Source: Sulfurimonas sp.
GTDB taxonomy: Bacteria > Campylobacterota > Campylobacteria > Campylobacterales > Sulfurimonadaceae
Direction of reading: 5' to 3'
DNA: 32,480 nt
Assembly (NCBI RefSeq): GCF_041583195.1
Contig: NZ_JBFHGL010000009.1
Location: 1-32,480, forward strand
The position numbers and the translations under genes are program-made. Shown here in pieces: positions 1,566 to 27,937 of this stretch. The stretch's first letter is position 1. Every line of letters begins with the position of its first letter. Under the pieces are notes generated by a model. That model did no database searches and had not been told where the DNA came from. It saw only the letters and a list, made by a program, of their open reading frames with translations.

Positions 1566-4322
1566 ATGGACTACAAAGAAACATTACTATTACCTACAAC
1601 TAGCTTTGCTATGCGTGGTAACCTAATCGAGAACGAACCTAAGCGTTATGCTTCTTGGGATGATAAAAAAGTTTATGAAAAGATGAAAGCTAACCGTAAA
1701 GGTGCACAAAGCTTTACACTACACGATGGACCTCCGTATGCAAACGGAAACACTCACATCGGTCATGCTCTAAACAAAACTTTAAAAGACATCATTATCA
1801 AGCATAACTACTTCAACGGAAAAAGCGTTCGTTTTACTCCAGGTTGGGATTGTCATGGTCTACCGATAGAGCAGCAAGTTGAGAAAAAGCTTGGCGGAAA
1901 AGCTAAAAAAGAGCAACTTGAAGTTTCTAAAGTAAGAGAGCTGTGCCGTGAGCACGCTGCAAAATTTGTAGATATCCAAAGAGAAGAGTTTAAAAAATTA
2001 GGGATCATTGCTGATTGGGAAAATCCATATGTAACTATGGACTATAAGTTTGAAGCAAACATCTACCGTACACTTTGTAATGTTGCTAAAAAAGGTCTTT
2101 TAGTTGAGAGAAGCAAACCTGTATACTGGTCATGGGCTGAGCGTACAGCACTAGCTGAAGCAGAGGTTGAGTACGAAGATAAAGAGTCACACTCTATCTA
2201 TGTAGCATTTGAGCTTAGTGATGAAGCTAAAACAAAAGCCGGTCTTGTTGGAGATGCTGCTCTTGTTATCTGGACTACAACTCCTTGGACACTTCCTGCA
2301 AATACAGGTATATCTCTACACCCAGAAGAGAAGTATGTCCTAACTACTGATGGTTATATCGTAGCAAAAGCATTATATGAATCTTTACTTGAACTAGGTG
2401 TAGTAAAAGGTGAAATAGCTCAGGAAGTAGATCAAAAAGTACTTGAAAATGAAGTAGCTATAAACCCACTTAACAAACGTACATCTAAAATAGTTCTAGG
2501 CGAGCACGTTATGATGGACAGTGGTACAGGTGGTGTTCATACAGCACCTGGTCATGGTGAAGACGATTACCGTGTAGGTCTAAAGTATGACTTAGAAGTT
2601 GTAATGCCTGTTGATGAGACTGGTTGTTATGATGAGACGATCGTTCGTGATGGACTATTACCAAACCCAGAAGAGTTTGTTGGTAAGCTGATCTTCAAAT
2701 GTAACGAACCGATCTTAGAGCTTCTAGGTGATGCACTACTTTATGATTCTAAGTTCACTCACTCGTACCCACACTGTTGGAGATCTCATACTCCACTGAT
2801 CTTCCGTGCTACTAAGCAGTGGTTTATCTCGGTTGACGGTACACCTGAGGGTGAGAACAAAACACTTCGTGACATAGCTCTGACTGAAGTTGAGAAAACT
2901 CTTTTCTTCCCTGAAACTGGAAGAAACAGACTTAACTCTATGGTTGAGAACCGTCCAGACTGGTGTATATCTCGTCAGCGTGACTGGGGTGTGCCAATAG
3001 CGTTCTTTAGAGTAAAAGCTACAGGTGAAGTTATACTAGATGAGAAAGTTCTAAACTTTACAGCAATGGTATTTGAGATGCACGGGAGCGATGCATGGTA
3101 TTCAATGCCGACTGAAGAACTTTTATATCCGGGAAGTGGATATACTGCTGATGAAGTTGAAAAAGTAAGCGACATTCTTGATGTATGGTTTGATTCTGGT
3201 TCAACTTGGTACTCTGTTTTAAAATCTCGTAACTATGACGCTGGAGAGTATCCTGCTGATCTTTACGTAGAAGGTTCAGATCAACACCGCGGTTGGTTCC
3301 AGTCATCAATGTTCTTAAGTACGGCTGTTGAGCATGTAGCTCCATACAAAGCTGTTCTTACTCACGGTTTCACTGTTGATGAAAAAGGTGAGAAGATGAG
3401 TAAGTCTAAGGGTAACGTTGTTGCACCTGAGAAAGTTCTAAAACAATATGGGTCTGAGATACTTCGTCTTTGGGTAGCTTCAAGTGACTACCAAGGGGAT
3501 CTTAAAATTTCTGATGGTATCTTAAAACAAACTGCCGAGAGTTACCGTAAACTAAGAAACACATTTAGATTTTTACTTGCGAACATTAACGATTTAGATG
3601 CTCTTACTCCTGTAGATCAAATGGGTGAATTAGACAAATGGATCTTAAGTGTAGCTGGTGATGTGTTTGAGAGCGTACACGCATCGTTTAGTAAGTACAA
3701 CTATGTAAACGGTATGAACACGCTTAACAACTTCATAGCTAACGAGTTAAGCGGTATCTATATGGATATCACTAAAGATAGACTTTATTGTGATGGCATG
3801 AATGACACTCACCGTAGAGCAAGCCAGAGTGCTATGGCTATGATCGTTAAACAGCTTCTTACTCTTATGGCTCCGATCATCACATACACTTGTGATGAAA
3901 TAGTTGAGACTGCTCCGGCGATCATCAAGGGTGATGCTGAAGATATATTTGACTTTGTATATGAGCCGATGGAGAAAGTTGAAAGCAACTTTGATGGCGA
4001 GTATATGAAAAAAGCTCGTTTTGGTTTTGGTTCTGCGATAGACTCACTTAAAAAAGACAAAACAATCAAAGCTACACTAGAGCTAACTCTATACACTGAC
4101 TCTGCAAAAGTTCTAGCTTTAGATTCTACAGAGGCTGAAGACTGGTTCGTTGTTTCTGGTGTAAGTACTGAAAAAGGTTCTACAGAACTTGGAAGTTTTA
4201 AAGTGGATGATGATGAGTTTATAATCTACAAAGCTGAAGCACACAAATGTCCACGTTGTTGGAAGTTCAATTCAGAAGCTGAAGACACAACTTGTACTAG
4301 ATGTGGCGAGGTTTTAGCGTAA
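1566..4322 (+). CDS. ileS: Isoleucyl-tRNA synthetase
   Basis: This cytoplasmic class I synthetase charges tRNA-Ile with isoleucine and edits mischarged valine. At 918 residues it has normal length for the bacterial enzyme. Visible landmarks are [12 protein letters not shown] with the HIGH motif at residues 64-67, the editing-domain region ([11 protein letters not shown]), KMSKS at 610-614, and a C-terminal zinc finger with Cys 895, 898, 910 and 913 (CPRC and CTRC). ATG at 1566 follows GAGG at a suitable distance. The stop codon overlaps the start of the next small gene (TAATG), so the two are probably translated in tandem. Confidence 0.98.
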
Positions 4323-4444
4323 TGCCTGATTTCACACAACCTGTAGAGATGAGTTTTGTATTTATCTCTATAGGTGCAATACTACTTGTCACTGCTATAG
4401 GCATAGGACTTGTAAAACTTGGAAAAAAGTCTAGAAACTCTTAG
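4322..4444 (+). CDS. Small single-span membrane protein coupled to ileS
   Basis: A 40-residue open frame starts at the ATG that shares its A with the ileS stop (TAATG). The protein begins [10 protein letters not shown], has one hydrophobic span (about residues 11-32, rich in Ile, Leu, Val and Gly) and ends in a basic tail (KLGKKSRNS). I recall a similarly small membrane gene between ileS and gatA in Campylobacter jejuni, which supports a real gene, but its function is unknown to me. The last codons and the stop form the left arm and loop of the terminator that follows. Confidence 0.72.
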   Translation: MPDFTQPVEMSFVFISIGAILLVTAIGIGLVKLGKKSRNS

Positions 4445-4453
4445 ACTTTTTTC
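4422..4453 (+). terminator. Strong intrinsic terminator of the ileS operon
   Basis: A perfect 12-bp inverted repeat pairs 4422-4433 with 4442-4453 around an 8-nt loop. The core is GTCTA/TAGAC flanked by six A on the left and six T on the right, so it could stop transcription from either side. The stop codon of the 40-residue gene lies in the right arm. Confidence 0.88.
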
Positions 4454-4539
4454 TTCTCCCTCCCCTTCTCTTTTTTTATAATCATTTAATATAACTTTTT
4501 CTGTTTTCTAATATTTATATTGTTTCAAGTAAATATTTA

Positions 4540-4545
4540 TATAAT
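4540..4545 (+). promoter_or_regulatory. -10 box for the membrane/coiled-coil gene
   Basis: TATAAT lies 29 nt upstream of the ATG at 4575; no matching -35 was seen. The rest of the gap after the ileS terminator (4454-4574) is A+T-rich with nothing else recognisable. Confidence 0.45.
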
Positions 4546-4574
4546 ACTCGATAAATAAATACTAAGGGAAAAAC

Positions 4575-5036
4575 ATGATATTAAATATTCTTCAATATGG
4601 ATATTTAGGCTTATTAGCCATAATGATTTATTTATGTTACAAAATTATCTCAAACTATCAAAAACATAATACTCCGTTTATACAGACAATAATATTAGTA
4701 ATAATATTTTTAGGCATCAGTTGTGTAGGTGGTTATATGGGATATCTTTGGGCAGATAAAGAATTAAAAGTTGCACTATCAAAAGAAACGTCTTTAACCA
4801 TTATGAAAGAACAAATTCAAGCAGCTAGAAAAAGACTTGAAAGTAATAAAAAAACTCTAAAAAAAGCTCAAGCTAAAGCTTTAAATGATGCTAATGCAGG
4901 TTATATGCTAGATGGTGCAAGAGATATAGCATTTAAAAGAGCGAAAGATATCGAAAATTTTATTAATAAACAAGAAGAAAATTATCAAAAAGAAATCAAA
5001 GAAATAGGTATAGCTTTTAATATTAAAAAGCAATAA
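4575..5036 (+). CDS. Membrane protein with lysine-rich coiled-coil tail, function unknown
   Basis: The 153-residue product has two hydrophobic spans (about residues 4-27 and 39-61) followed by a charged Lys/Glu/Ala-rich region to the end that reads as a coiled coil, with many ARKRLESNKKTLKKA-like heptads. I do not recognise the family. The ATG follows AAGGGA at 7 nt. The gene is notably A+T-rich and sits at the head of a patch of damaged genes (5.0-6.03 kb), so it may be accessory DNA. A membrane tether or scaffold is possible, but nothing in the sequence settles it. Confidence 0.75.
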   Translation: MILNILQYGYLGLLAIMIYLCYKIISNYQKHNTPFIQTIILVIIFLGISCVGGYMGYLWADKELKVALSKETSLTIMKEQIQAARKRLESNKKTLKKAQAKALNDANAGYMLDGARDIAFKRAKDIENFINKQEENYQKEIKEIGIAFNIKKQ

Positions 5037-5044
5037 TATGAAAT

Positions 5045-5152
5045 ATGTATATCCAAAAACACTTTAATATAACAGAACAAAAGCAGATTCAAGCCTTTAC
5101 AAAATCAAATCCATTTGCCACACTTACATCAAATACTAGGAGCAAAAGATAA
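5045..5152 (+). pseudogene. paiB-like gene fragment (FMN-binding split-barrel family)
   Basis: The frame opens with MYIQKHFN and continues to NPFATLTSN, which matches the first 30 or so residues of PaiB / FMN_bind_2 proteins (MYIPKHF and PFATL are the family hallmarks). Those proteins are about 200 residues; here the frame stops after 35 (stop 5150-5152). The next 100 bases encode the unrelated phosphatase-like gene, so the missing part was deleted, not just frameshifted. The ATG lies 8 nt after the previous stop. I consider it a remnant, though a short peptide could still be made. Confidence 0.65.
5138..5142 (+). promoter_or_regulatory. Shine-Dalgarno site pointing to an AUA start
   Basis: AGGAG is followed by 6 nt and then ATA AAA ACG ATT, where the phosphatase-like protein family is expected to begin. 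The site decides the start of the next gene even though the start codon is not a standard one. Confidence 0.6.
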
Positions 5153-5586
5153 AAACGATTTTAAACTTTATCAAAATTAATGATTATATATCAACAGCAG
5201 GACAACCAACAAAAAAAGAATTTAAACTTATTTCAAAAAACAAATTTGATGTAGTAATAAATTTAGCACTACATAATAGTAATAGTGCTTTAAAAAATGA
5301 AGATAAAGTTGTATCAAAAAATAATATGATTTATATCCATATTCCAATATCTTGGGAAAATCCAGAAATTGACAGATTAAAATTATTTTGCAATACATTA
5401 AAAACATTACAAGAACAGAATAAAAAAGTTTTTATACATTGTGCAAAAAACTATAGAGTATCCATTTTTATATATCATTATAAAAAAATGATATTAAAAG
5501 ATAAAAGTGCTAAATTAGTTTTACCAAAAGGATTTAAACCAAACAAAGTTTGGAAAAATATAATTAACATGCATATTAAAGCATGA
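5149..5586 (+). pseudogene. Tyrosine-phosphatase-like protein with AUA in place of the start codon
   Basis: The open frame from 5149 encodes 145 residues: INDYISTAGQPTKKEF, FDVVINLALH, YIHIPISWENP, then FIHCAKNYRVS and KPNKVWKNI near the end. This is the layout of a bacterial dual-specificity/tyrosine phosphatase-like family with a Cys in the P-loop (HCxxNxRVS). There is no ATG, GTG or TTG before residue 60; an ATG at 5326 would discard the entire front half. A good ribosome binding site (5138-5142) sits 6 nt before ATA 5149, so either ATG mutated to ATA and the gene is dying, or AUA is used at low efficiency. The paiB fragment overlaps its start. The P-loop has four, not five, residues between Cys and Arg, so phosphatase activity is not assured. 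Confidence 0.6.
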
Positions 5587-5618
5587 CAAAATATAGCTAA
5601 CTTATAAAAGGAGTAAAA

Positions 5619-6030
5619 GTGAATTTTGTAGCAGCTATAACAATAACGCTTTTAATCATTATAGGCTTATTTCATTTCTACTGGGCTTTTGGTGGAAAGT
5701 TAGGTATAAACAAAGTTATACCAGAAGTTAATAACGAAGCACTTTTTTAAACCCGGAAAAATTATAACTGTATTTGTCGCTCTTGTGTTATTTAGCTTTG
5801 CATTTATTGCCTACAAACTTTACTTCTGCTCTGACAACTCTGAACTTATAGCTATATTTGGATGGATCATTTCAGCTGTCTTTACACTAAGATCAGTTGG
5901 TGACTTTAATATGGTAGGCTTTTTCAAAAAAATAAAAGATACGGAATTTGCAATTTATGATACAAAATATTTTTCACCATTATGTTTGATATTAGGTGTT
6001 ATATTTGCTACACTGACATACAACGTATAA
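5619..6030 (+). pseudogene. DUF3995-family membrane protein, frameshifted at a T6 run
   Basis: Translation from GTG 5619 (AAGGAG at 5608-5613, 5 nt spacing) gives 43 residues including FHFYWAFGGKLG and VIPEVNNEALF, the DUF3995 N-terminus, then stops at TAA 5748-5750. Removing one T from the run 5743-5748 restores a frame continuing KPGKIITVF and on to TYNV at 6030, for 136 residues in total with about four membrane spans, the expected size. DUF3995 proteins have no assigned function. The break is either a mutation, a phase-variable tract, +1 slippage at UUU-UAA, or a sequencing error in a homopolymer. Confidence 0.75.
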
Positions 6031-6051
6031 ATAATAAAAAAGGTAAAAGGT

Positions 6052-7632
6052 ATGGGGTTACTAGACTGGTCAATTATTGGTGCTTATTTTATATTTTTAC
6101 TCCTTTTTGGTTATTTTGTAGGTAGAAAAAACCATGATCAGGACGACTACTATGTAGCTGATCGTAAACTATCTTGGTGGGCTGTTGGAATATCTACTAT
6201 GGCTACACAAAGCTCCGCTATTAGTTTTATATCTATCCCCGCATTTGTAGCTGTTAAAGAAGGTGGAGGACTCACATGGCTTCAGTATGAACTTGCCCTG
6301 CCGCTTGCTATGATCGTCACATCTATTTTTCTAATCCCCCTATTTCGTAAGTTAAAACTGGTGAGTGTTTATGAATACCTGCAACTACGCTACGATACAA
6401 GTGTAAGAAACACTGTTGCAGTAATATTTCTACTTAGTCGCGGGCTTGGTACCGGTATAGCCTTGTATGCCACTGCGATCGTTATGCAAAGCATTACAGG
6501 GTTTGAGCTGTGGATCTCTATTTTAGCTATGGGGCTTATTATACTTATTTATGACACTTTAGGCGGTATGAAAGCCGTTGTTTATTCAGATATTCTGCAA
6601 ATGGGACTGCTATTACTTGGAGTTGTAGTATCGATCTATATCGCCGTAGATATTATTGGAGGATTTGGTGTTATGTTTGAAACGTTTCCAAAAGAGCGTT
6701 TACAGACACTAGATTTTAGCTGGGGTTTTAATACCGATGGCTCTATGCCGTTTTGGGCATTTTTATTTGGAGGCTTCTTTTTATATTCTGCTTATTACGG
6801 AACGGATCAGAGTCAGGTTCAAAGAGAGCTCTCAACCAAAAATATAAACGAATCAAAACTATCACTTTACTTTAACGGTTTTGCCAGATTTCCACTTACA
6901 CTACTATATGTGCTAATGGGTATAGCGGTAGGTACGCTTTATATGCAAGACAGTTCACTTCAAGCCTCTATTGCATCTACTTCTGCTGATCACCTTATAC
7001 CTCAGTTTATTTTAGAGTACCTCCCTATTGGTGTTAAAGGGTTGTTGATCGCGGCCATTTTAGCAGCTGCCATGTCAAGCATAGATTCGGCACTAAACTC
7101 ACTCTCAGCCGTAACTCTGCATGACTTTGTGTTAAAAGAAAAACATATTGAGGGTGTAAAAGAGATCCGTTTAAGCCAGTTCACTACTGCTTTTTGGGGA
7201 ATTGCCATTATAATCTTTGCTTTTTTTGTAGGCTCTATAGCCGATACCGTCATAGAAGCCATAAACAAAATAGGTTCTGCATTTTACGGCCCTGTTCTGG
7301 CTGTATTTTTAGCGGGAGCTATACATAAAAATATTGGAAGCAATGCTATTTTGATCGGTCTTTTTAGTGGTGTTGGCATAAATGTGTTTTTATGGATTAT
7401 GCATCCTGAAATTATGTGGATGTGGTGGAACGTGATCGGAGTGGTTATAGCTTATGTTATTGCACTGCTTCTTTCACTTACTTATTTTAAAAACACTAAT
7501 GTACATTCAAAATATACTGCAAAACACAATATAGCACTTAACTGGAGAAGAATGGACACTCTTTTGGTAGGCTATTTTTTCATTATGTTTATTATGCTTT
7601 GGGCTATTGAAAGAGGTTTAGCAAACATATAA
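6052..7632 (+). CDS. Sodium/solute symporter (SSS family)
   Basis: A 526-residue polytopic inner-membrane protein with roughly 13 hydrophobic spans, normal for the SSS/SLC5 fold. Family marks seen are an N-terminal span followed by GRKNHDQDDYYVADRKL, the TMATQSSAISFISIP stretch in the second span, YEYLQLRYD, GGMKAVVYSDILQ, the GTDQSQVQRELSTKN loop, and AAAMSSIDSALNSLSAV. SSS members couple Na+ entry to uptake of sugars, amino acids, organic acids or vitamins; the substrate cannot be read from sequence. ATG 6052 has AAAGG upstream. It lies 21 nt after the frameshifted DUF3995 gene and is followed by a weak terminator. Confidence 0.92.
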   Translation: MGLLDWSIIGAYFIFLLLFGYFVGRKNHDQDDYYVADRKLSWWAVGISTMATQSSAISFISIPAFVAVKEGGGLTWLQYELALPLAMIVTSIFLIPLFRKLKLVSVYEYLQLRYDTSVRNTVAVIFLLSRGLGTGIALYATAIVMQSITGFELWISILAMGLIILIYDTLGGMKAVVYSDILQMGLLLLGVVVSIYIAVDIIGGFGVMFETFPKERLQTLDFSWGFNTDGSMPFWAFLFGGFFLYSAYYGTDQSQVQRELSTKNINESKLSLYFNGFARFPLTLLYVLMGIAVGTLYMQDSSLQASIASTSADHLIPQFILEYLPIGVKGLLIAAILAAAMSSIDSALNSLSAVTLHDFVLKEKHIEGVKEIRLSQFTTAFWGIAIIIFAFFVGSIADTVIEAINKIGSAFYGPVLAVFLAGAIHKNIGSNAILIGLFSGVGINVFLWIMHPEIMWMWWNVIGVVIAYVIALLLSLTYFKNTNVHSKYTAKHNIALNWRRMDTLLVGYFFIMFIMLWAIERGLANI

Positions 7633-7633
7633 C

Positions 7634-7665
7634 AACTATAACTAATATTCAAAATTATTATAGTT
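7634..7665 (+). terminator. Weak terminator-like hairpin after the symporter gene
   Basis: AACTATAA (7634-7641) pairs with TTATAGTT (7658-7665), and T-rich sequence follows (TATTTAGTTTTTATT). The stem is A+T-rich, so its strength is doubtful. The rest of the 114-bp gap up to endA holds only a possible TATAAC box (7722-7727). Confidence 0.4.
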
Positions 7666-7746
7666 TATTTAGTTTTTATTATTAAAAAAATCTACATACT
7701 TTCTTTTATTTAAAAATATTCTATAACTCCGCATTCAGGAGTTTAG

Positions 7747-22793: not shown

Positions 22794-22815
22794 CAATTAA
22801 GAACACATTAAAACT

Positions 22816-22859
22816 CTTTAATATAAAATAAACCTTTCGTGGGTTTAATTATATTAAAG
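22816..22859 (+). promoter_or_regulatory. Long hairpin that captures the ribosome binding site of the response regulator
   Basis: CTTTAATATAA (22816-22826) pairs perfectly with 22849-22859, and inside it TAAACC (22829-22834) pairs with GGTTTA (22842-22847) around the 7-nt loop TTTCGTG. The AAAGG ribosome binding site (22856-22860) for the ATG at 22867 is in the right arm, four of its five bases paired. No T tract follows, so this looks more like translational control than a terminator. Confidence 0.7.
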
Positions 22860-22866
22860 GCTGTTT

Positions 22867-24366
22867 ATGAATGATCTAAAAAAGCTAGCCAAAGAGGCTC
22901 AAGCTTTTAGTGTTTTATTTGCTGAAGACAACACTAAACTCAGAAATAATGTTGCCAAACTTTTAAATAAATTTTTCTCCAACGTCGATATTGCAGAGAA
23001 CGGTAAAACTGCATTAGAACTTTTTAAAAAAAACTCATACGATATTGTTATAACTGATATTATCATGCCTGAAATGAATGGTATGGAGCTTGCCAAATAT
23101 ATAAAAGACCTTAACACCCATGCAAAAGTAATCATCATGTCTGCTTTTGATGACAGAGAATACCTTATGAACTCAATCGAACTTAAAGTATTCAGATTTT
23201 TAAAAAAGCCAGTAGGCATATATGAGTTTGCAGATGTTATTAATGATGCCATTACAGAGCTAAAAGAAGAACAAAATGCCAATGTTTTCAATACAAATTT
23301 AAAAAATGTATTTAACTACCAATCATCTATAGTTTTAATGTTAAAAGATTTTAAACCTATTATGGCAAATCAAATGTTTTTAGACTTTTTTGGTGTTGAC
23401 GACCTTGAAAATTTTTTTCAAAAGCACAAGGACTTGGGCAACGTATTTTTAAAACATGATGGATTTTTATATCAAACTGAAGATAAAAACTGGTTTGATG
23501 AGATTCGTGAAAATACAAAAGAGATGCATAATGTTAAACTTTTTGACAAAAACAAGAAATTTAAACACTTTATACTAAAATATACGGAGATTCCAGATCA
23601 GGAATCATATGGGATTTTATCTTTTGATGATGTGACAGACTTAAAACTATTAGACCTATATGATGCTTCTCAAATAGACAATCAAGAAAATTTAGAAAAT
23701 GAAAAAGCTATGTTTGATCTTTTAAACATCTTACATAGAAACTATGCCACAGTAGAAGTCCATAACTACTATAAAGGCTTAAGCATAACCAACGATGGTA
23801 CGATAACTGAAATAAACGATAAGAAAATAACATTAAAAACAAAATTCAGTCAAATAAGAGCTATCCAGTATGAAAAAAAAACAATTCTTGTCTCTGACTC
23901 ATTACCATATGCCATAGAAGCCAAAAGTGTAGAAAGAATCAGTTATGATAAACAAGAAGTTGTCCTTAGTGATTTAAAATTCATTCAAACATCTGCAGTT
24001 GATAGAAAAACTGTAAGAATAGTTCCAGATGAGAAGCAATCAATTTCACTATTTCTGGGAGAAAACAAATTTCATACCGATATAACTATAGACGACATAT
24101 CTTTAGAAGCTATAAAACTCAGTATGTACACTATTCCTGCAGGACTTGAAGAGGGTGATGAAGTTTGGCTGAATATTGTCTTGGAATTTGATAAAAAACC
24201 GTTTATTATAAATACCTCTGCAAAACTACTGCATAAAGATGCACGAAAAAATGACTATCACCTTATCTTTGCATTTGAAGATCTAAATAAAAGTGAATTG
24301 ACTAAATACATAACAAAAAGACAAATGGCAATAATCAGAGAATTTAAGGGGATTAAAGATGAATGA
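22867..24366 (+). CDS. Response regulator with REC, PAS-like and PilZ-like regions
   Basis: The 499-residue cytoplasmic protein starts with a full receiver domain (about 13-128): acidic pair Glu 20/Asp 21, phospho-acceptor Asp 64 in VITDIIMPEMNG, Ser 92 and Lys 114 in FLKKP. Residues 150-270 look like a degenerate PAS domain (FDDVTDLKLLDL at its end). A region of beta strands follows, and residues 379-490 resemble PilZ, with RxxxR at 380-384 (DRKTVR) and DISLEA at 410-415, where PilZ normally ends in Gly. It has no DNA-binding domain. The output may be c-di-GMP binding or protein contacts. It overlaps the next gene by 8 nt. Confidence 0.85.
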   Translation: MNDLKKLAKEAQAFSVLFAEDNTKLRNNVAKLLNKFFSNVDIAENGKTALELFKKNSYDIVITDIIMPEMNGMELAKYIKDLNTHAKVIIMSAFDDREYLMNSIELKVFRFLKKPVGIYEFADVINDAITELKEEQNANVFNTNLKNVFNYQSSIVLMLKDFKPIMANQMFLDFFGVDDLENFFQKHKDLGNVFLKHDGFLYQTEDKNWFDEIRENTKEMHNVKLFDKNKKFKHFILKYTEIPDQESYGILSFDDVTDLKLLDLYDASQIDNQENLENEKAMFDLLNILHRNYATVEVHNYYKGLSITNDGTITEINDKKITLKTKFSQIRAIQYEKKTILVSDSLPYAIEAKSVERISYDKQEVVLSDLKFIQTSAVDRKTVRIVPDEKQSISLFLGENKFHTDITIDDISLEAIKLSMYTIPAGLEEGDEVWLNIVLEFDKKPFIINTSAKLLHKDARKNDYHLIFAFEDLNKSELTKYITKRQMAIIREFKGIKDE

Positions 24367-25120
24367 CAATAAAGAAAAAATATTATATGATGATGGTACA
24401 CATAAATGTGTGATGTTTAGTTTTGATGATGAAGAGCTTGGGGATTCTTTCTTATCTGTAAATCAATATTTGATTATTCAAAAAGATTCTGCAGTGTTAG
24501 TAGATCCTGGAAGTGAAGCTATATTTGACGAGCTGTATGATGCAGTAAGCAGATATATAGATGTGCAGAAAATTAAATTTGTTTTCCTCTCACACCAAGA
24601 TCCTGATGTATCAGGTTCAATAACTCAGTGGGCTATGAGCACAAAAGCAAAATTTGTGTTATCAAGCTTATGGGTTAGATTTATGAGCCATTACGGCTTT
24701 TTGGAAATGACCAGAATCATACCGCTTAATGATAAAGGAGCAAAACTAAACTTCGGAGCAGATTATTTGGAGTTTGTTCCTGCTCATTTTCTACATTCGC
24801 CTGGTAACTTTTCACTTTATGACTCAAGATCTAAAATTTTATTCTCAGGTGATATAGGAGCAGCAATAGTAACTTCTATGGGTGAGTATAAAAAAGTTGA
24901 AGATTTTGATTCACATGTAAAATATTTGGAAGCGTTTCATAAAAGGTATATGGGTTCAAATAAACTTTGTCGTGCATGGGTAAACAGAGTCAAAGCTCTT
25001 GAACTCTCAAAAATTGCACCGCAACATGGATTTGTATTTGAAGATGAAAACTCTGAAAAATTTTTAGACTGGCTTGAAAACCTTGAATGTGGAAGTGATC
25101 TGATAGATGATCTTTTCTAA
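24359..25120 (+). CDS. Di-iron metallo-beta-lactamase-fold protein (ODP/flavodiiron-like)
   Basis: The 253-residue protein has the beta-lactamase core of flavodiiron proteins but no flavodoxin domain. Metal ligand positions are readable: HQDPD at 79-83 (His 79, Asp 81, Asp 83), His 146 in HFLHSPGN, Asp 165 in FSGDIG and His 223 in PQHGF. The usual second His of HxExDH is Val 84. Stand-alone versions (ODP) bind O2 at a di-iron site and act as sensors in Treponema chemotaxis. Placed between a response regulator (8-nt overlap) and a kinase (15-nt gap), it is probably the sensory partner. AAGGGG gives the start. Confidence 0.85.
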   Translation: MNDNKEKILYDDGTHKCVMFSFDDEELGDSFLSVNQYLIIQKDSAVLVDPGSEAIFDELYDAVSRYIDVQKIKFVFLSHQDPDVSGSITQWAMSTKAKFVLSSLWVRFMSHYGFLEMTRIIPLNDKGAKLNFGADYLEFVPAHFLHSPGNFSLYDSRSKILFSGDIGAAIVTSMGEYKKVEDFDSHVKYLEAFHKRYMGSNKLCRAWVNRVKALELSKIAPQHGFVFEDENSEKFLDWLENLECGSDLIDDLF

Positions 25121-25135
25121 ACAAAAAAGTAAAAC

Positions 25136-27937
25136 ATGAATATTTTTGATACGAAAGAGTTACAAAAAAGTGTAATTTTATATATATCATTAGCAATGCT
25201 GACTCTTTTGCTATCAAGCATATTCACTATAAGTTTTGCACACAAACAATATATAGAAGAAAAAGAGAAAGAATATAAAAACAAGATCGATGTTAATATA
25301 CAAGATGCTATCAATTATATTATAAAGCACTACTACTATAGGGTTAGAAGTTTATCTGAAACGGCAAATATCAGAAGTTACATTTTAAATAATGATAGAG
25401 ATGGTTTATATAAAGTCTTGTACCCTATGTTTAAACTTATGCAGGAAGAGAACTCATACCTAAAAATCATGCATGTTCATTTAGCAGATGGCAGATCATT
25501 TTTAAGGGTACATAAACCGGATGACTATGGTGACAATATAGCACAAACAAGAGCTATGATAAGAAATATTCATAAAAGCCATAAAACTACAACAGGTTAT
25601 GAAACAGGCAGACATGATAGTGTATACAGAATCATAAGTCCCATTTTTGATACAAACGGAACTTATATAGGGGCAATAGAAATTGGTATTGAACCGACCT
25701 TTTTAATTGAAGCTATAAAAAATATCAGTGATTCTTTTGGAGTACTTTTCATTAAAGAAGATGAGCTTAAAATTTTTTCATCTTCAGATGAAAATGAGAA
25801 GTTTAAAAAACTATATAATCAATTCAAACCGATAGACTTCAATGATCATAAACACTACGATATAGATGGTCAAGACTACATGACACACTTTATAATTTTA
25901 AAAAACTTTTCCGATGAAGACAGTGTAAAGATCATTACATTTCAAAAAAAAGATAATATTTTTTCATCTTTTTTTTATACCTATTATTTAAGATACTTAC
26001 TTATTTTAAGTCTATTTTTTGTCATTGTTTTTATGGTAATTAAACAAGTCAGAAAGTATCAAGAAAGTGTTGAAGATATTTACAATCAGCAAGTTGATGA
26101 ATTAACTAAGAGTAAAACTAACCTCCAAGATTTGTTTGATACTACACCTGATATTTTGATAACAATAAACTCTAAAACAATAAAGAATGCAAACAAAGCT
26201 ATGCTGGAGTTTTTCGGTTATAACACACTTGAAGACTTTCTAAGTGAGCATAATTGTATATGTGATTATTTTGAAGAAGTTTATGAGTGTCTTGAAGAGA
26301 GTGTACATGGGCTGAAGTGGTTTGAATATATAAAACAAAATAACCATAAAGTACATAAAGTATCGATGACAAAAAACGGAAAAAAGTATTTTTTTGATAT
26401 AAAATCTAAAAAACTATCTTACGATACAGACAATACACACTTGGTAGTATTTACAGATATAACAGAAATAGAGCTCTCAAGAGAAAGATATATATTTGCA
26501 TTAAATGCTACTAATGATGGTTTATGGGACTTAAACCTAGTAAATAATGAACTATATTTATCAAACAACTGGAAAAAACAACTTGGATATAATCCTGATG
26601 AACTAGAAAGTTCACAAGAAGTCTGGAAAGAACTTCTACATCCTGATGATAAAGATAAAGTAATAAATAATTTTCAAAGTAATATAAAAGGGCAAACTGA
26701 TACTTATGAATGTGTATACAGACTAAAACATAAAGACGGACACTGGGTATGGATTTTAGACAGAGGGAAAACTTTGTTCGATCACAATGAAATAGCGATT
26801 CGTGCTATAGGTACACATACAGATATTACAAAAGTGAAACAATTAGAAAAAGATTTAAAGGGTCAAAAATACATATTTGAACTTTTTATGGATCATATCC
26901 CTGCCTATGTAGTTATAAAAGATATAGATCAAGAGTATGTATATGCAAACTTACTAAGCAAACATTTTTTTGATAATGAAAACCATCAAATTGAAGGGGG
27001 AGAGAACTTTTTTGATGAAGAAACTATAAATAAAATTAAATCTATGGATGATATAGCTTATGAAAAAGGCAAGTGTGAAGATATTCTTAAAATTCCTAAA
27101 GCAAATATTGACAGATATTATAGAGTAATTAAGTTCTCTATAAAAAATAATGAATCCAAAAAGCGTATAGCAACAATAGCTTTTGATATTACGGAAGATT
27201 ACAATAACAAACTGGAACTTAAAGAACAGCAAAATATTATGATCTCACAGTCACGTCAAGCTGCTTTAGGAGAGATGATCAGCATGATAGCCCACCAGTG
27301 GAGACAGCCAATCAGCATTATCTCTATGGAAGCGAGTAATATGCTTGCAGATATTGAATTTGACAACCTAAACAATATATTATCAAAAGAGTATGCAAAC
27401 AATATCATGTACCAAACTCAAGAACTCTCACATACTATAGATGATTTTAGAAACTTTTTTAAGCCTGTAAAAATACGTGAAAAAGTGAAACTGGAAAACA
27501 TATTTTTTAATGTAATGAAGATCATTGGAAAGTCTTTGGAAAACAATAGTATTAACGTAGTAATGGAGATTGACAACACTATAGAGTTATATACTTATTC
27601 AAGAGAGCTCATGCAGGTTATTATAAACCTAATTAAAAATGCTAAAGACTCTCTTGTTGAACACAATAAAGAAAATCCAACGATAAAAATTTTAACAAAA
27701 AAAGAAAAAAATATTATCACAATAAGTATATGCGATAACGGTTCAGGAATAGATGAAAAAAATAAAGAGAAGATCTTTGAACCCTATTTTAGTACAAAAG
27801 ATCAAAAAGATGCAACAGGACTTGGACTTTACATGAGTAAAACAATTATTGAAAGACATCTAAATGGAAAAATATCTGCAAATAATACTGAAAAAGGTAT
27901 ATGTTTTTGCATAATAATTCCTGATGACCTAGACTAA
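25136..27937 (+). CDS. Membrane sensor histidine kinase (Cache-like, three PAS, HisKA/HATPase)
   Basis: The 933-residue kinase has a first span (about 13-35), a periplasmic domain (36-280) resembling double Cache sensors (MHVHLADGRSFLRVHKPDDYG, YRIISPIFDTNGTYIGAIEIG), a second span (283-303), then PAS regions at about 325-440, 455-570 (PAS_3 type, ending HTDITKVKQ) and 580-690. The H-box is MIAHQWRQP with phospho-His 720, the N-box has Asn 831 and Asn 835 (NLIKNAKDS), then DNGSGID and GLGLYMSK. It presumably phosphorylates the response regulator two genes upstream. The ligand is unknown. Its end overlaps the convergent MFS gene by 4 bp. Confidence 0.92.
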   Translation: MNIFDTKELQKSVILYISLAMLTLLLSSIFTISFAHKQYIEEKEKEYKNKIDVNIQDAINYIIKHYYYRVRSLSETANIRSYILNNDRDGLYKVLYPMFKLMQEENSYLKIMHVHLADGRSFLRVHKPDDYGDNIAQTRAMIRNIHKSHKTTTGYETGRHDSVYRIISPIFDTNGTYIGAIEIGIEPTFLIEAIKNISDSFGVLFIKEDELKIFSSSDENEKFKKLYNQFKPIDFNDHKHYDIDGQDYMTHFIILKNFSDEDSVKIITFQKKDNIFSSFFYTYYLRYLLILSLFFVIVFMVIKQVRKYQESVEDIYNQQVDELTKSKTNLQDLFDTTPDILITINSKTIKNANKAMLEFFGYNTLEDFLSEHNCICDYFEEVYECLEESVHGLKWFEYIKQNNHKVHKVSMTKNGKKYFFDIKSKKLSYDTDNTHLVVFTDITEIELSRERYIFALNATNDGLWDLNLVNNELYLSNNWKKQLGYNPDELESSQEVWKELLHPDDKDKVINNFQSNIKGQTDTYECVYRLKHKDGHWVWILDRGKTLFDHNEIAIRAIGTHTDITKVKQLEKDLKGQKYIFELFMDHIPAYVVIKDIDQEYVYANLLSKHFFDNENHQIEGGENFFDEETINKIKSMDDIAYEKGKCEDILKIPKANIDRYYRVIKFSIKNNESKKRIATIAFDITEDYNNKLELKEQQNIMISQSRQAALGEMISMIAHQWRQPISIISMEASNMLADIEFDNLNNILSKEYANNIMYQTQELSHTIDDFRNFFKPVKIREKVKLENIFFNVMKIIGKSLENNSINVVMEIDNTIELYTYSRELMQVIINLIKNAKDSLVEHNKENPTIKILTKKEKNIITISICDNGSGIDEKNKEKIFEPYFSTKDQKDATGLGLYMSKTIIERHLNGKISANNTEKGICFCIIIPDDLD

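Follow-up and report, generated by a model that had tools for sequence, protein, structure and literature searches.

A response regulator with a predicted c-di-GMP receptor module and a stand-alone ODP-family protein form a conserved gene pair in Sulfurimonadaceae

This analysis concerns a run of three + strand genes in a 32,480-nucleotide stretch of DNA from Sulfurimonas sp. (NZ_JBFHGL010000009.1, positions 1 to 32,480 of the forward strand; hereafter the window). The first gene (22867..24366) is an open reading frame (ORF) of 499 residues encoding a REC-PAS-PilZ response regulator, the second (24359..25120; 253 residues) encodes a stand-alone protein of metallo-beta-lactamase fold belonging to the oxygen-binding di-iron protein family (ODP; PF19583), and the third (25136..27937; 933 residues) encodes a membrane sensor histidine kinase. 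Comparison with relatives showed that regulator and ODP are conserved together as a unit, whereas the kinase is probably exchangeable. The 3' end of the regulator and the start of the ODP overlap by 8 nucleotides (ATGAATGA; 24359..24366, + strand), an arrangement through which the two genes are probably translationally coupled, and 15 nucleotides separate the ODP from the kinase. ORFs, overlap and gap agree with an earlier sequence-only reading of this DNA.

Conservation of the regulator-ODP pair

The ODP was sought in 228 Sulfurimonadaceae genomes, and 63 of them, the window's own included, hold a match of at least 336 bits. These 63 exclude L132, in which the ODP (44% identical) is cut short and the regulator is fragmented, and L133, in which the ODP contains stops and the regulator is not adjacent. 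In 60 of the 63 ODP loci the gene immediately upstream, in the same orientation, is the regulator; two of the others stand at contig ends and the regulator is absent from one. Of the 60 pairs, 26 have a spacing of -8 between the two genes and 15 a spacing of -11 (41/60 together). Because this adjacency persists despite a mean pairwise identity of 44% among the regulators, the pairing is more than chance. The regulator, scored as present in genomes with a match of at least 132 bits, is also found in 62 of the 63 ODP genomes (Fisher p = 1e-27, kinship ignored), and in the exceptional genome (G307) the ODP sits at a contig start.

The kinase keeps much looser company with the pair. It is the next gene after the ODP in at least 24 of the 63 loci, which is a lower bound because in L075, L086 and L094 the contig ends within the following gene; the next gene of L076 has Cache and PAS matches and no kinase core, and is not among the 24. 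Same-strand runs with gaps of at most 60 nucleotides contain a kinase in 26 of the 63 loci, a REC-HD-GYP protein in 17 (confirmed by Pfam in three loci), a GGDEF-EAL protein in 2, and none of these neighbours in 25. The sequence-only reading had proposed to search relatives for the order of all three genes. The regulator-ODP part of this order is borne out and the kinase part less well so, and given these two frequencies a conserved three-gene system was dropped as a candidate. Coupling to a methyl-accepting chemotaxis protein (MCP) within Sulfurimonadaceae was also dropped, as an MCP occurs within positions -3 to +4 of 6 of the 63 loci and is the next gene in none of them (one MCP query, E≤1e-4). 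In L083 and L087 a GGDEF-EAL protein of about 1210 residues replaces the kinase after the pair, with the architecture CBS-PAS-GGDEF-EAL by Pfam in L087.

Sequence distances among regulators follow those among their ODPs (Mantel r 0.84 over 54 pairs, matched by 0 of 2000 shuffles). When the comparison is confined to the 22 loci with a kinase, the coefficients are 0.86 for regulator and ODP, 0.49 for kinase and regulator and 0.59 for kinase and ODP. The excluded locus L132 has a damaged ODP and a damaged regulator next to a kinase and a REC-HD-GYP gene that look intact. Regulator and ODP very probably form a functional pair.

Regulators that lack the ODP were also considered, using 20 loci hand-picked from the family matches for spread. 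A kinase directly follows the regulator in 13 of these loci (within 60 nucleotides in 10), regulator and kinase overlap by 8 nucleotides in L250, L251 and L253, and both L251 and L252 continue to a REC-HD-GYP gene. With regulator and kinase thus found as direct neighbours, the ODP looks like an optional gene between them. The ODP-less regulator of L252 is nested among ODP-bearing regulators, which points to losses of the ODP.

Predicted properties of the regulator and the ODP

Fold, motif and domain matches together lead us to read the regulator as a REC-PAS-YcgR-N-PilZ protein (REC at about residues 13-135, PAS at 136-265, YcgR-N at 272-375 and PilZ at 376-475), the PAS assignment coming from weak matches. 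Pfam recognises the receiver domain at E 6e-24 with Asp64 as phospho-acceptor, and Asp64 and Lys114 are each conserved in 52 of 53 regulators; a sequence check placed Asp64, as well as His720 of the kinase, where the sequence-only reading had them. PAS is matched at E 0.063 in the window protein and at E≤0.01 in 7 of 40 orthologues; at the latter threshold 19 of the 40 have a PilZ match. A paralogue from the same genome (L249) passes the PilZ cut-off (23.4 versus 22.5 bits).

A structure of the whole regulator, predicted from 40 sequences, has a predicted local distance difference test score (pLDDT) of 87. Residues 272-499 were modelled separately (pLDDT 93) because the receiver domain filled the fold-match list of the whole protein. 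The fold search with this part returned MotI/DgrA (E 9.7e-9) and YcgR with c-di-GMP (cyclic di-GMP; E 2.3e-8), followed by VCA0042, PA4397 and MrkH. Alignment of the model with YcgR (5y6f) by VIA-align gave Z 14.2 over 207 residues with a root-mean-square deviation (rmsd) of 11.1, a high value that presumably reflects a different angle between the two domains. Taken singly, the domains align closely, PilZ with 5y6g (Z 13.3, rmsd 2.5 over 115 residues) and YcgR-N with 5y6h (Z 9.8, rmsd 2.5 over 92 residues).

The canonical c-di-GMP-binding motif of PilZ domains consists of RxxxR and D/NxSxxG. In the window regulator the corresponding stretch (residues 380-419; 24004..24123, + strand) reads R380xxxR384 and D410xS412xxA415. 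Among 53 distinct ODP-adjacent regulators (L208, a duplicate of L125, being taken out), R380 is present in 53, R384 in 52, D410 in 52 and S412 in 53, and position 415 is alanine or glycine in 51 (42 and 9, respectively). The 20 ODP-less regulators retain R380 in 19, R384 in 18, D410 in 17 and S412 in 20, with alanine or glycine at position 415 in 9 and serine in the other 11. On the strength of the model, the C-terminal half of the regulator is a YcgR/MotI-type YcgR-N and PilZ module and a predicted c-di-GMP receptor. It shares this fold, together with RxxxR and DxSxx(A/G), with YcgR of E. coli and MotI/DgrA of B. subtilis. Unlike in those proteins, the module is attached to REC and PAS-like domains, and phosphorylation and perhaps the ODP would therefore control it. 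Pfam matched no DNA-binding domain, and the PilZ-like, non-DNA-binding output proposed from the sequence is supported.

The middle gene had been called a di-iron protein of ODP type, and this assignment stands. The window protein scores 249 bits against the PF19583 profile (cut-off 27.2) and aligns over nearly its full length with two oxygen-binding di-iron proteins of solved structure, 6qrq (E 1.7e-76) and 6qnm (E 2.9e-75), while flavodiiron proteins, nitric oxide (NO) reductases among them, match it far worse (E 3.3e-10 and weaker). The structures titled oxygen-binding di-iron protein (PDB 6qrq, 6qwo, 6qnm and 6r9n) are, we presume, the Treponema denticola and Thermotoga maritima ODPs of Muok 2019. 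Columns aligned with the flavodiiron ligands hold the complete set H79, D81, D83, H146, D165 and H223, together with Q222. All 63 close relatives have this ligand set unchanged, and it is kept in 12 of 12 examined ODPs of a second, more distant group described below (L146 being outside the 12), in 16 of 17 fused ODPs and in all 32 loci from L202 to L233. An unusual glutamine at motif 5 is described for the T. maritima ODP in the accessible part of PMC7785958. The window ODP is predicted to carry two irons and to alternate between a reduced form and a peroxo form with O2 bound.

The same fold invites the thought that the ODP is an enzyme or scavenger (of O2 or NO, or else a zinc hydrolase) which is merely co-transcribed with signalling genes, the nearest solved enzymes being flavodiiron proteins with NO reductases among them. 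Several points speak against this. Only ODP and lactamase-fold families were matched by Pfam in the 253-residue protein, with no match to a flavodoxin domain; no electron donor was recognised in the locus by reading; the ligands are of ODP type, with Asp81 and Gln222 invariant in 63 of 63; and the company of signalling genes recurs in other ODP groups. We regard an enzymatic role as highly improbable. The genome has a separate gene of flavodiiron length (an open frame of 417 residues at G000:C10:21436).

Partners of ODPs outside the pair

Signalling by ODPs has been studied with chemoreceptors. To our knowledge, the ODP is also one of few direct O2 sensors that work with neither haem nor flavin. 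The ODPs of T. denticola and T. maritima are likewise stand-alone proteins of about 250 residues, and their partner is a soluble chemoreceptor with CheA (available portions of PMC7666581 and PMC6978683), whereas here the ODP stands with a regulator and a Cache kinase. The next gene in the window is a kinase, and the ODP-MCP adjacency of the chemotaxis subgroup does not occur there.

The comparison set comprised 30 loci without a Campylobacterota name (Thermodesulfovibrio, Aquificales, Spirochaetes, Synergistaceae and others), whose ODPs are 44-52% identical to that of the window. Titles of L203, L218, L219 and L228 name no phylum, and these four are assumed from 46-48% identity to lie outside Campylobacterota; L208 and L210 bear Campylobacterota names and were excluded, and of these only L208 has the regulator upstream. 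A soluble chemoreceptor, mostly of 279-296 residues, is encoded at +1 or +2 of the ODP in 22 of the 30 loci and a REC-PAS-PilZ regulator upstream in 0 of 30. These sequence comparisons are best read as the transfer of an O2 or iron sensor from chemoreceptors to a c-di-GMP effector under phosphorylation control.

The 8 loci of this set without a chemoreceptor are 7 from Aquificota and L231, which ends with its contig. In the Aquificota loci (L209, L221, L225, L227, L229, L232 and L233) the ODP is followed by secreted-looking genes, which Pfam identified as SCO1-SenC in L232 and PCu(A)C in L221; the other five are alike by their first residues. These neighbours perhaps indicate a link to oxidase assembly. 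L210 (2988-5765) encodes a REC-GGDEF protein that matches PilZ weakly (E 0.014), perhaps a cyclase and a receptor in one chain, and an ODP of 45% identity comes after it.

A second group consists of 13 further stand-alone ODPs of the family that are 32-39% identical to the window protein. A GGDEF, EAL or HD-GYP gene is present at +1 or +2 in 12 of them (PAS-GGDEF-EAL at L144 and REC-HD-GYP at L136 by Pfam), and in the exception, L146, a kinase lies upstream and the 3.5 kb contig shows no c-di-GMP gene. Fusions of the ODP were also found in the order. The fetched subset of 17 contains 8 ODP-GGDEF and 9 ODP-kinase proteins, the latter recognised by Pfam in five cases and by a kinase-core query in four. 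The ODP-GGDEF fusions span four families of the order (codes f4, f5, f8 and f11), with the ODP N-terminal to GGDEF in seven strong cases (L037, L038, L039, L040, L041, L042 and L044), and their architecture makes them candidate non-haem O2-responsive diguanylate cyclases. The eighth, at L043 (5004-6518), has lost most metal-ligand residues and has a weak GGDEF match; it is likely a degenerate or re-purposed sensor. The accessible text of PMC7319448, in its account of Muok 2019, reports in general terms that ODPs share operons with other signalling genes and also occur as fusions with signalling domains. The sequence-only reading knew of no described pathway with the present combination. As to the exact combination this holds, the regulator-ODP pairing being absent from the literature among the matches listed, with subscription journals mostly outside coverage; ODP signalling operons and fusions in general had already been reported.

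The ODP-kinase fusions form a branch with transcriptional output rather than a c-di-GMP one, as a small regulator gene overlaps 6 of the 9 and is REC-Trans_reg_C (OmpR-type) in the two that were scanned (L035 and L148). A uroporphyrinogen-III methyltransferase gene directly precedes the fusion in 4 of the 9 (L035, at 2490-7676, and L036, L148 and L149). In the three scanned loci the gene at -3 encodes a NirJ-like radical SAM protein that scores under the curated cut-off, and L035 has a Cytochrom_D1 propeller. By this gene context, fusions near such a heme d1 type run are candidate O2 or NO switches for denitrification. The same four loci, with the relationship of the ODP to NO reductases, bring in the possibility that the regulator-ODP unit is real and that its signal is NO or Fe(II), not O2. 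The accessible parts of the ODP studies speak of O2 and iron and show no NO data (PMC7319448, PMC6978683), and we consider such a change of signal unlikely.

The kinase of the window consists, by Pfam, of dCache_3, PAS domains, HisKA (His720) and HATPase_c, with ATP-binding stretches beginning at residues 831, 867 and 894. An ODP acting on such a histidine kinase, with the O2-bound form changing its autophosphorylation or phosphatase activity, would account for the loci in which a kinase comes next and for the 9 of 17 fusions that join the two. In Treponema, iron-peroxo ODP reportedly destabilises phospho-CheA. In 39 of the 63 loci, however, no recognised kinase stands next door and the ODP still lies beside the regulator; the adjacent kinases range from 382 to 1148 residues, so that their sensor parts differ; and kinase-ODP distances correlate less than regulator-ODP distances. 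Kinase-core scores of near and far kinases differ at a level (Mann-Whitney p 0.03; n=25 and 11) too weak to be used. We therefore judge an action on the kinase to be possible and not favoured, and as the main explanation quite unlikely. The sequence-only reading had the ODP gate the phosphorelay as an O2 or redox sensor; its assignment to the ODP family is supported by the ligand set and its link to kinases by the kinase fusions, and the gating of the kinase is not favoured, the ODP keeping with the regulator. Since the ODP stays where the kinase is missing, and regulator and kinase occur together without the ODP, gating of the phosphorelay was recast as an action on the regulator.

A candidate route from oxygen to c-di-GMP output

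Our explanation of the locus as a whole, which we hold to be about evenly poised between right and wrong, is that the ODP serves as a sensor of O2 or iron whose target is a phosphorylation- and c-di-GMP-controlled regulator of the motor or another surface function. In one redox state the ODP would bind the regulator, and the bound ODP would shift the lifetime of its phosphorylation or the conformation of REC-PAS-PilZ. The c-di-GMP-loaded PilZ domain would then dock, or fail to dock, on a target that is most probably the flagellar motor, and docking there would slow or stop swimming at a given O2 level. Phosphorylation of Asp64 by the Cache-PAS membrane kinase would be a second, exchangeable input, and the REC-HD-GYP protein encoded in the operons of 17 of the 63 relatives would adjust c-di-GMP. 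Judged from its genes, the arrangement suggests a direct oxygen-to-swimming control. A more specific version, in which Campylobacterota rewired the ODP from chemoreceptors to c-di-GMP signalling and the free protein of Sulfurimonadaceae docks on a phosphorylation-controlled flagellar brake, with O2, phosphorylation and c-di-GMP summed there and CheA bypassed, is put forward tentatively and with more doubt than belief.

Several observations weigh against this account. L116 has an ODP without a neighbouring regulator, and 39 of the 101 regulator genomes are without a close ODP, which is therefore dispensable. On a quick regulator tree (54 rows, L208 included) the ODP label switches at least 10 times between present and absent, and 6 of these changes are forced by well-supported branches; shuffled ODP labels on the tree give a mean of 17.8 changes, with 0 of 500 shuffles as low as 10. 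The Mantel and co-occurrence figures carry no control for genome phylogeny. PilZ of the window regulator falls below the Pfam cut-off (16.5 versus 22.5 bits), and its motif has Ala415 where the canonical one has glycine. PAS, the likeliest docking domain, has a mean identity of 42.3% with the ODP and 41.9% without it (PilZ 42.2 versus 37.5; C-terminus 65.0 versus 56.3), and as its conservation does not rise with the ODP no docking surface is named. Finally, MrkH aligns nearly as well as YcgR (Z 13.7), so that a YcgR-like fold is no proof of a flagellar target.

MrkH is a c-di-GMP-dependent transcription factor. The two-domain fold it shares with the regulator, and the fact that no flagellar gene was recognised among the window ORFs by reading, would suit a real regulator-ODP unit whose PilZ domain serves attachment, pili or gene expression in place of the motor. 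The top fold matches include the motor-directed YcgR and MotI/DgrA, ODP genes in other bacteria lie with chemoreceptor genes, and no DNA-binding domain was matched; a non-motor output is in our estimate rather unlikely. The likelihoods given to these explanations do not sum to one because the rivals concerning output and signal are variants of the explanation preferred here, an ODP acting on the regulator.

Cle proteins of Caulobacter are not known to have a YcgR-type PilZ domain or an ODP partner. They are likewise CheY-like, and c-di-GMP tunes the flagellar motor through them (PMC5677366, in the part available). Haemerythrin- and globin-coupled c-di-GMP enzymes likewise join an O2 sensor, or a candidate one, to c-di-GMP signalling (PMC10101095 and PMC10882959, as far as their text was accessible); these sensors have another fold and are fused to the enzyme, whereas the window ODP is a separate protein. 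A conserved pairing of ODP and c-di-GMP effector would give the ODP a second and simpler partner, for which transmission is testable with two soluble proteins, and would bear on the choice that sulfur oxidisers limited by O2 make in redox gradients, to swim or to stay.

The window belongs to a genome of 2.38 Mb that is 99.9% complete, with the locus on contig C9. By reading, gatA precedes the trio, and an MFS transporter and a MarR-like regulator follow it on the opposite strand. Promoter-like sites in the sequence are at shuffle level (33 versus 29.6) and terminator-like sites barely exceed it (3 versus 1.4), and none is claimed. Between gatA and the regulator start lies an AT-rich inverted repeat (22806-22869) with 21-nucleotide arms that are 81% complementary, plus a smaller repeat; these may be a terminator, an operator or chance. 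A PilZ family search of the genome (E≤0.01) returned 1 match and missed both the window regulator and its paralogue L249. Other family searches of the same genome matched 1 FliM, 20 MCP, 62 GGDEF and 16 HD-GYP.

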